Positions 40,472-43,039 of a stretch of DNA of 64,000 nucleotides are shown in pieces (the first letter of the stretch is position 1; every line of letters starts with the position of its first letter). A program made the position numbers and the translations under genes. Below the pieces are notes generated by a model. The model did not search any database. It had not been told where the DNA came from and was given only the letters and a program-made list of their open reading frames with translations. This stretch comes from Aminomonas paucivorans DSM 12260 (GTDB lineage: Bacteria; Synergistota; Synergistia; Synergistales; Synergistaceae): the NCBI RefSeq assembly GCF_000165795.1, contig NZ_CM001022.1:1240001-1304000 (forward strand), given 5' to 3'.

Positions 40472-41734
40472 TCAGCCCCGGGGAGAAGGCGTCTCCGGAG
40501 AACGTCCTTCCTCGCCCTCTTCCTCCAATGCCTGTCGCAGCGCCGAGGAGAACCCTCGCACTTCCTCGTCGGTCAGGGTGAGGGGAGCGTAGGCTCGGAG
40601 TAGCTGAAACCGCTTGGAGAGCCCCAGGAAATACCCCCGGCGAAGGAGGGCGGTGAACAGGCGGGAGGGGGAAGCCTCCGGGGGCACCTGGAAGACGTTC
40701 ATCATCCCTCGGCCCCGAACCTCCGAGATGCCCCGCAGGCCCCCCCGGGCCTCCTCCACCTGGGCCCGCAGGGACGCCCCGACCCGGTCTCCCCGAGCCA
40801 CCAGGCCGTCCCGCCCCAGGATCTCCACGACCTTCCGGGCCACGGCACACCCCAGGGGATCGTCGATGTGGGACTGGACGTAGATCAGGTTTTCCTCCCG
40901 GGCCTGTCGAGCAAGGGAGGAGCGGAGGAGCACGCCGCTGACGGGGTATCCGTTCCCCAGTCCCTTCCCCAGGGCAATCAGGTCCGGCAGGTCCGAGGCC
41001 CCGACCAGGGAGGGGTAGTGCTGGAAGCCGAACCAACGCCCGGTCCGTCCGAAGCCCGTGGTCACCTCGTTGCAGACCACCAGCCCCCCTGTCTCCCGGA
41101 TCCGGGCGCTCAGATGGGAGACCAGTTTCGGGGGGGGGCACAGGACCCGCCCTCCGGAGTTCCCCGGTTCGAAGACGAAGCAGGCGTGGTCCCGGAAATC
41201 GATTCCGTCGAGTTTCTCGCAGAGGTCGCATCGGGAGGATGCCCCGCAGTCCAGACATCCCCGGATGTCCAGGTCGGTCCAGGCGTCGGGGTTCCGGGGC
41301 ATGCGCAGATCCGGGGTGGCCCCCAGATAGGAAAGATTCGTACAGAGCTTGCGGGTCCGCTTTGTCAGGTTCTCTGCAAGCCACACCGCCGCGGAGACTG
41401 CCTCGGTGCCGGAGGTCAGGTAGGTCCCGCAGTAGTCTCCGCCCGACAGGCCCGATGCGTCGCAGAGCTCCTCGGTCAGGTCGGAGGCGTGTCGAAGGAC
41501 GAACTTCTCGTGGAGGTGCAGGGCCCGAGGGGCCTGTTCGATCAGCGTTTCGAGGATCTCCGGGTGGGCGTGCCCCAACGGGGCCGCCCAGCATCCCGAT
41601 TCCATGTCCACCAGCTCGCCGTATTCGTCGGTCCAGATTCGGTTTCCCGAAGCCTTTCGGGCGGTCAGGGAAACCGGAAGAGATTCGAACAGGCGCAATC
41701 TCCGGTCGGGTCGAACCTCCGGGGCCGTCATCAT
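40472..41734 (-). CDS. Divergent class III pyridoxal-phosphate aminotransferase-fold protein with a Cys4 knuckle
   Basis: 420 residues from ATG 41734 (GAGGAGGAG upstream; an in-frame GTG at 41767 would be less favourable). Class III features: LTSGTEAVSAA (phosphate loop), GLGNGYPVSGVLL after the Schiff-base Lys at about 257, and GFGRTGRWFGF. Unusual points: the cofactor Asp of D-E-V-x-[ST]-G-F-G-R is Asn (VVCNEVTTGFGR), the usual F-H-G segment reads SYLG, and residues about 160-172 form C-x2-C-x5-C-x2-C. It may act on an amino acid imported by the adjacent liv system, but substrate and activity are open. A perfect CTCCACGG/CCGTGGAG hairpin lies upstream (41762-41780). Confidence 0.85.
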   Translation of the reverse strand: MMTAPEVRPDRRLRLFESLPVSLTARKASGNRIWTDEYGELVDMESGCWAAPLGHAHPEILETLIEQAPRALHLHEKFVLRHASDLTEELCDASGLSGGDYCGTYLTSGTEAVSAAVWLAENLTKRTRKLCTNLSYLGATPDLRMPRNPDAWTDLDIRGCLDCGASSRCDLCEKLDGIDFRDHACFVFEPGNSGGRVLCPPPKLVSHLSARIRETGGLVVCNEVTTGFGRTGRWFGFQHYPSLVGASDLPDLIALGKGLGNGYPVSGVLLRSSLARQAREENLIYVQSHIDDPLGCAVARKVVEILGRDGLVARGDRVGASLRAQVEEARGGLRGISEVRGRGMMNVFQVPPEASPSRLFTALLRRGYFLGLSKRFQLLRAYAPLTLTDEEVRGFSSALRQALEEEGEEGRSPETPSPRG

Positions 41735-41842: not shown

Positions 41843-42949
41843 TTACCGTACCTTATAGATTCTCCCGTCCAGGCTGCCGAAGAAGGCCGCCCCGTCCCCC
41901 AGAGCGGGCGCACCCGTCACGTTGCCCCCCACCTTGGCCTTCCAGAGCAGATTGCCCGTGGCCGCGTCCAGGCAGAAGAGGGCGTCGTCGTTGCTTCCAA
42001 AGTAGACCTTCCCCGCCGCCACGGCGGGGGAGGAGGGGATGCCCATGTGGGTCTTGAAGACCCAGAGGGGGTTGCCCGTGGCGGCGTCCAGGCAATGGAG
42101 CTGTCCCGCCATGTCCCCCACGTACAGCTTTCCTCCGGAGACCACGGGGGAGGACTCCACGGAAGCCCCGGCGGCGTAGCGCCACACCACTGCCCGGTGC
42201 TTGACCCGGGCGGCGTAAACCTTCCCGTCCCAGCTTCCGAAGTAGAGCATCCCGTCGGCCACGGCGGGGGAGCCGCTGATGGGACCGCCTACCACCGCCC
42301 GCCAGAGGAGGGTGCCCTTCTGGGCATCCAGGGCGTAGAGCTTGCCGTCGTGGTTGCCCACGTACACCACCCCGTCCGCCACCGCCGGGGAGGAATAGAC
42401 CTCCCGCCCTGCCTTGAATTTCCACTTCTGCCAGCCCTTCTTCAGGTCCACCCCGTACACATATCCGTCCACGCCTCCGAAGAAGACCAGGCCGTCCGCT
42501 ACGGCGGGGGAGCTGTGGACGTTCTTGTGGGTGGTGAAGCGCCAGGCCAGTTTGCCCGTGGCGGCGTCCAGGGCGTAGACCCGGCTGTCGTAGCTGCCGA
42601 AGATCACCAGGCCCCCGGAAACGCAGGGGGAAGAGGCCACCCAGTTCTCCGTGGGGAAGGTCCAGCGTACCCGACCGGACTCGGCGTCCAGGGCGTAGAG
42701 GCTGCCGTCGTTGCTTCCCACGAAGAGGGTGTTGCCCCAGAGGGCGGGGGAGGAGGACACGGCGCCGCCGGTCTGGAGGCGCCAGACCAGTTCTCCCTTG
42801 ACGGCGGAGGGAGCCGTGGAGGGGGCGGAGGCGAGCCCCGTGCGGCGCTCGTTGCCTCGGAAGACGGGCCAGGATTCTCCCCAGGCCAGGGATGTCCCCA
42901 GGGTGAGGACAAGGGCTGCGGCGGCGAGGATGCGAAGGTTTCTGTTCAA
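41843..42949 (-). CDS. Secreted PQQ-like beta-propeller repeat protein
   Basis: 368 residues from TTG 42949, set by GAGGAGGT seven bases upstream. Signal peptide LRILAAAALVLTLGTSLAWG. The rest is about eight repeats of roughly 40 residues, each with a variant of SSPAVADG-x-[VL]-[YF]-[FV]-G-[ST]-x-D-G-x-[LV]-YALDA-x-[TS]-G, the blade pattern of BamB/PQQ-dehydrogenase propellers. It has no catalytic or haem motif, and no lipobox is evident. It is probably a structural or scaffolding protein of the envelope, but I cannot name a partner. Confidence 0.9.
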   Translation of the reverse strand: MNRNLRILAAAALVLTLGTSLAWGESWPVFRGNERRTGLASAPSTAPSAVKGELVWRLQTGGAVSSSPALWGNTLFVGSNDGSLYALDAESGRVRWTFPTENWVASSPCVSGGLVIFGSYDSRVYALDAATGKLAWRFTTHKNVHSSPAVADGLVFFGGVDGYVYGVDLKKGWQKWKFKAGREVYSSPAVADGVVYVGNHDGKLYALDAQKGTLLWRAVVGGPISGSPAVADGMLYFGSWDGKVYAARVKHRAVVWRYAAGASVESSPVVSGGKLYVGDMAGQLHCLDAATGNPLWVFKTHMGIPSSPAVAAGKVYFGSNDDALFCLDAATGNLLWKAKVGGNVTGAPALGDGAAFFGSLDGRIYKVR

Positions 42950-43039
42950 GGGTGGGACCTCCTCTCGCGGGGGCAAGCCCCGCAACGATGGGATTTTTCG
43001 GTACAATCGTCGGGTCATTTCAGGACGAGGTGAAGGAAG

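Follow-up and report, generated by a model that had tools for sequence, protein, structure and literature searches.

Among proteins of known structure, the one most similar to the gene product described here is DGD (1dka/1z3z), which was the best PDB sequence match (E 7e-31, about 24% identity) and ranked first in Foldseek, with a TM score of 0.84 to our model. ArgD (TIGR00707) has the same fold and lysine and gives the top NCBIfam scores of the subfamily to which the gene belongs (e.g., 225 bits for L008), which are far below its cut-off of 410 bits; ArgD itself has the Asp and lacks the Cys loop. A class III broad-specificity racemase (9wrf) has Glu aligned at the position that pairs with the N1 atom of PLP, likewise departing from Asp. 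Pig GABA aminotransferase and the deoxysugar dehydrase E1, a PMP/[2Fe-2S] enzyme, are fold type I proteins with Cys-bound Fe-S clusters, and E1-type enzymes lose the Schiff-base Lys. These two proteins are a precedent for Cys-bound clusters, but their Cys positions differ from those discussed below.

The role of the N1 Asp in aminotransferases, protonation versus geometric strain, is debated, and the tests so far have used engineered or disease mutants. In human AGT, D183N causes a 2.3x10^4-fold loss of catalytic efficiency with PLP affinity unchanged, the Asn amide forming a hydrogen bond to a deprotonated N1 and the strain of the aldimine being relaxed (PMC5601474). The loss caused by the D-to-N change in E. 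coli AAT is similar (PMC5601474). In alanine racemase, which has another fold, an unprotonated N1 is natural and the quinonoid is disfavoured (PMC6411801).

The gene lies in the window, by which we mean the whole 64,000-nt stretch of DNA that was analysed, within a 2.63-Mb genome assembled as one contig. The features considered are as follows, with the evidence for each in brackets.

40472..41734, minus strand: class III PLP-dependent enzyme, Asn-type, 420 aa (translation, PF00202, AlphaFold2 model, Foldseek)
41588..41590, minus strand: W49, a subfamily signature residue present in 38 of 38 rows (alignment)
41219..41257, minus strand: Cys4 loop, C160-x2-C163-x5-C169-x2-C172 (translation, alignment, pLDDT)
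41045..41071, minus strand: N222-E-V-T-T-G-F-G-R230, with N222 (AAC, 41069-41071) at the site of the N1-pairing Asp (translation, alignment)
40964..40966, minus strand: K257, the Schiff-base lysine, invariant in all rows (alignment)
40871..40873, minus strand: S288 of Q287-S288-H289, where other class III enzymes have a phosphate-binding Thr (aligned with DGD T303)
40595..40597, minus strand: R380, corresponding to R406 of DGD, the Arg for the substrate carboxylate (alignment)
41846..43018, minus strand: PQQ/ACSF4-type beta-propeller with an N-terminal signal-like segment, upstream of the enzyme gene and co-directional with it (Beta-prop_ACSF4, PQQ_2)

The window protein matched PF00202 with E=6e-47 (160.6 bits against a cut-off of 30.5), and an AlphaFold2 model built from 38 sequences had a mean pLDDT of 90.5 and a pTM of 0.90. 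The best Foldseek matches of this model were DGD, GABA-AT and ArgD, with class III racemases also near. None of the named NCBIfam equivalogs (ArgD, GabT, BioA, racemases) was reached, the best score being 135 bits against a cut-off of 457, and the relatives were likewise under the curated NCBIfam cut-offs. The protein is a PF00202, fold type I member by fold and homology, yet it is not canonical; on sequence grounds, it is a member of a so far unnamed class III PLP subfamily.

Scanning 84,980 species genomes with the single protein yielded just two true relatives, one in a Bacteroidales MAG and one in Desulfospira joergensenii, which were 34–35% identical to the window protein and both had the Asn and the Cys4 loop. 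Profile searches of about 1,600 genomes in three phyla (the window's phylum, the Desulfospira phylum and order, and the MAG order and phylum) brought about 35 further relatives, and no relative was found on a plasmid. The Asn rows come from Synergistota, Desulfobacterales, and Bacteroidales; because three phyla and a pattern scan were sampled, the apparent limitation to groups of anaerobes may be a sampling effect. W49, T225-T226, and Q287-S288-H289 were present in all 38 subfamily rows, and this combination was absent from the other class III rows; the window protein has the whole set together with Asn222. In a tree built with the trait columns omitted, the Asn and Asp members formed one clade of 36 rows (support 100/99), to which a Glu-type Synergistota branch was adjacent. 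The window protein and its sister L014 formed a separate long branch, the Asn-type L031 and L032 were nested among Asp members, and L071, which lies inside an Asn clade, has Asp and appears to have reverted. The Asp/Asn state changed four times on this tree with the signature residues kept. Monophyly of the Asn rows was rejected by an AU test (p 2e-5), which points to repeated gain of Asn or to its loss and subsequent regain; the test did not reject a tree that joins the branch of the window protein plus L014 to the main Asn clade (p 0.17). Under either history, Asn persists across deep inter-phylum divergence. In the Synergistota sister branch (L016-L019; L042-L044), the N1 site is occupied by Glu (EEITTG), the Cys loop has the spacing 2-5-6, and a MocR regulator is adjacent. 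In one Asn-type relative, located at a contig end (L073, 1-933), the reading frame contains a stop and the Cys set is incomplete.

The first-pass annotation of the window had read N-E-V-T-T-G-F-G-R in place of D-E-V-x-[ST]-G-F-G-R, and the translation matched this exactly: the residue facing PLP N1 is Asn222 and neither Asp nor Glu. Across the subfamily alignment, the N1 site was Asn in 28 of 38 rows, Asp in 8, and Glu in 2, whereas the other class III sequences aligned had Asp in 30 of 32 and Glu in the remaining two. The occurrence of Asn in 28/38 subfamily members, against an acidic residue in 32/32 of the others, is beyond chance. The sister gene L014, the closest relative (its protein is about 57–58% identical), also has AAC at this codon, which excludes the sequencing error that the annotation had raised, and its differences from the window gene are mostly synonymous-looking and in third positions. 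The other caveat raised there, an isolated variant, is ruled out by the presence of Asn in 28 separate genes across the family. Glu, as found in 9wrf and in L016-L019, a branch which also resembles the window protein in having a Cys4 loop and is next to a MocR gene, is charged and able to protonate N1, whereas the Asn of the window protein is unable to do so. When the subfamily alignment was searched for a residue compensating for Asn, no column besides 222 fully split the Asn from the Asp rows.

The rest of the active site was largely conserved. K257 was found in every class III row aligned, including all 38 of the subfamily; E111, E223, G227, R230, and S288 were also invariant, and R380 occurred in 27/28 Asn rows. 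In the alignment to DGD, K257 corresponds to Lys272, R380 to Arg406, S288 to Thr303, and D292 to Asp307, an alkali-metal ligand in DGD; the position of DGD Ser215 is Ser in most members. DGD differs in having Asp243 where the window protein has Asn222 and Gln246 where it has Thr225, in lacking the Cys4 loop, and in its decarboxylation-specific Gln52, in place of which the window protein has Cys48 and most subfamily members have Val or Ile. The residue after the E-P motif, acidic in other class III transaminases and racemases, is Ser in 22/28 Asn rows and Gly in the window protein; D210 of the AACL racemase, a residue taken from PDB titles, is probably the equivalent acidic residue. Catalytic competence thus appears to be preserved, with the known racemase and transaminase signatures both incomplete.

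The segment C-x2-C-x5-C-x2-C that had been noted near residues 160–172 is exactly present, in a region where the AlphaFold2 blocks over residues 151–180 had pLDDT values of 86–93. It had been described as foreign to the fold, which the alignment with ordinary class III enzymes rules out: about a quarter of those examined (L098, L102, L103, L106, L110, L112, L115, and L002) have the pattern CYRCPFG..SC...C, C-x2-C-x8-C-x3-C, at the same alignment position, and one of them, the BioA-like paralogue L002, is encoded by the window's own genome. These ordinary enzymes (e.g., L110, L112, and L002) share the loop position with the window protein and differ from it in the spacing of the cysteines and in having Asp at the N1 site. 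Within the subfamily, four cysteines occur in the loop in 25/28 Asn rows, with the spacings 2-5-2, 2-5-3, 1-6-3, 2-4-3, and 2-3-2, of which 2-5-3 (C-x2-C-x5-C-x3-C) is the commonest (15/28). The co-occurrence of Asn and Cys4, which the first-pass annotation had suggested checking, is frequent, but the two are not strictly coupled and do not form one device: L015, L031, and L032 have Asn without the Cys loop, and L034 and L071, like the ordinary class III enzymes, have Asp with Cys4. A phylogeny-aware test of the Asn-Cys pair, in which there were only four independent pairs, was not significant. Judging from its distribution, the Cys4 loop is ancient within class III and optional. Its conservation makes metal binding likely, and it is probably a structural metal knuckle, of which varied spacing would be expected. 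No paper describing Zn bound by a Cys4 loop in a class III enzyme was found in our literature search. Further cysteines, absent from the window protein, are conserved in the main Asn clade at 50, 77, 103, and 107 (window numbering), the last of them adjoining the phosphate cup.

According to the mechanical gene calls, a branched-chain amino acid ABC transporter (Peripla_BP_6, two BPD_transp_2, and two ABC ATPases) occupies about 35.7–40.4 kb on the opposite strand and converges on the enzyme gene, with stops about 60 bp apart. The adjacency pointed out earlier is thus real, but the convergent orientation rules out a shared operon and deprives it of value as functional context. The probably secreted propeller at 41846-43018 (minus strand; Beta-prop_ACSF4, 272 bits, plus a PQQ_2 match) is the only PQQ_2 (PF13360) protein of the window genome. 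The enzyme and a propeller are also paired in G721 (Bacteroidales), where the propeller is likewise the sole PQQ_2 protein, and in G886 and G949, and a propeller lies near the Asp-type gene of G680 (loci L051, L052, L053, and L090). By a post hoc hand tally, the pairing occurs in five genomes of three lineages against about 0.09 expected, if each genome is taken to have 3,500 genes; it is missing from G084, the closest relative. No single conserved operon partner was found, the contexts differing between the genomes compared.

The proposal that Asn changes or disables the chemistry survives in its first half. Because AGT D183N loses efficiency yet binds PLP, altered chemistry is a sound inference, whereas disabled chemistry is unlikely, since the protein retains its Schiff-base Lys, carboxylate Arg, and phosphate-cup residues. 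A natural Asn clade with its other groups intact suggests that the chemistry has adapted to a ring that is a weak electron sink. The reading that we favor, though with somewhat less than even confidence, is that the subfamily performs altered alpha-carbon chemistry as catalytically intact PLP enzymes with a neutral pyridine ring. The window enzyme would hold PLP as usual, and its pyridine nitrogen would be neutral and accept a hydrogen bond from the Asn222 amide, leaving the ring a weak electron sink, so that fast ping-pong transamination is probably not performed. The reaction would most likely be a slower or more specific one at C-alpha of an alpha-amino acid, without a fully developed quinonoid, and candidates are proton exchange or epimerisation, elimination, and a narrow half-transamination. 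The Cys4 loop would derive from the CxxC...C...C loop of class III and form a compact metal knuckle, with structural Zn likelier than a redox cluster, and would not be essential to the Asn chemistry. The Ser or Gly after the E-P motif argues against the known racemase mechanism for the subfamily. Furthermore, the reaction may be common to the Asn and Asp versions, because close Asp relatives exist (8/38) and L071 has seemingly reverted, and transamination might be restored through compensation by neighbouring residues. A fuller version, in which a natural fold-type I lineage works on unprotonated PLP, performs a reaction new to class III that became fixed, or was regained, in at least two branches, and has a secreted PQQ-type propeller partner in several lineages, is possible but rather doubtful.

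It is also possible, although on balance we doubt it, that the protein is an ordinary aminotransferase, slow or narrow in range, whose local network has adapted to Asn and which performs normal transfer on an alpha-amino acid. The retention of all other catalytic residues, the four Asp/Asn switches with the signature kept (e.g., L071), and the MocR regulators adjoining the gene in L042-L044, L058, and L085 are consistent with this, since transaminase genes often adjoin MocR regulators (PMC5320631); the cost of D-to-N in AGT (2.3x10^4-fold) and E. coli AAT (PMC5601474) and the lack of an evident compensating residue, column 222 alone dividing the Asn and Asp rows completely, argue against it. 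The occurrence in groups of anaerobes, the commonest Cys spacing, the extra cysteines of the main Asn clade, and the NiFe hydrogenase and Fe-S protein neighbours in some genomes would fit a redox enzyme in which a Cys4 Fe-S cluster swaps electrons with neutral PLP/PMP, as in E1. We consider this improbable, given that three Asn members lack the loop, ordinary Asp-type enzymes also have it, the window protein has no extra Cys, the neighbours vary among genomes, and the Schiff-base Lys is retained. A non-catalytic PLP-binding protein (a PLP store, sensor, or assembly factor) would explain a residue that retains PLP affinity and lowers turnover (PMC5601474), the position of the G977 gene between a MocR regulator and pdxS, and a propeller pairing of no obvious catalytic logic. 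This seems more improbable still: the substrate Arg and the catalytic Lys are (nearly) invariant at about 30% identity, and pdxS was seen as a neighbour a single time and is absent from 4/6 host genomes tested. A decaying gene or a sequencing or assembly artefact can be practically dismissed, as it is already refuted by the AAC codon and the divergence pattern of L014; nothing at the window gene points to it, the only hint being the in-frame stop of L073, and the open frame, the mostly synonymous-looking divergence, and the 28 separate Asn genes contradict it.

The subfamily is a scattered bacterial PLP group in which a near-universal cofactor-activating acid has become Asn and which probably does altered chemistry. 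Natural Asp, Asn, and Glu versions of one enzyme within a clade would allow the role of the N1 residue to be tested in evolved, working proteins, and close Asp/Asn pairs are available for comparison (L071 versus L065/L068; L031/L032 versus L035-L038). For annotation, it is a reason against naming Asn-type proteins acetylornithine or aspartate aminotransferase.

Several individual gene contexts were also observed. In G977 (L085, 6694-10378), a MocR regulator, the Asn-type enzyme, and PdxS (PLP synthase) form an apparent operon, in which the last two genes touch. The Desulfospira gene (L009, 4663-9083) follows NiFe hydrogenase genes and starts a few bases past the gene for the HycI maturation protease. 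PEMT/ICMT methyltransferases are found in the context of the gene in G1033, G1139, and G981, and MttB methyltransferases in G1051 and G1084. In two Desulfobacterales (L080 and L083), MttB-type methyltransferases and a sensor-like regulator flank the Asn-type enzyme.
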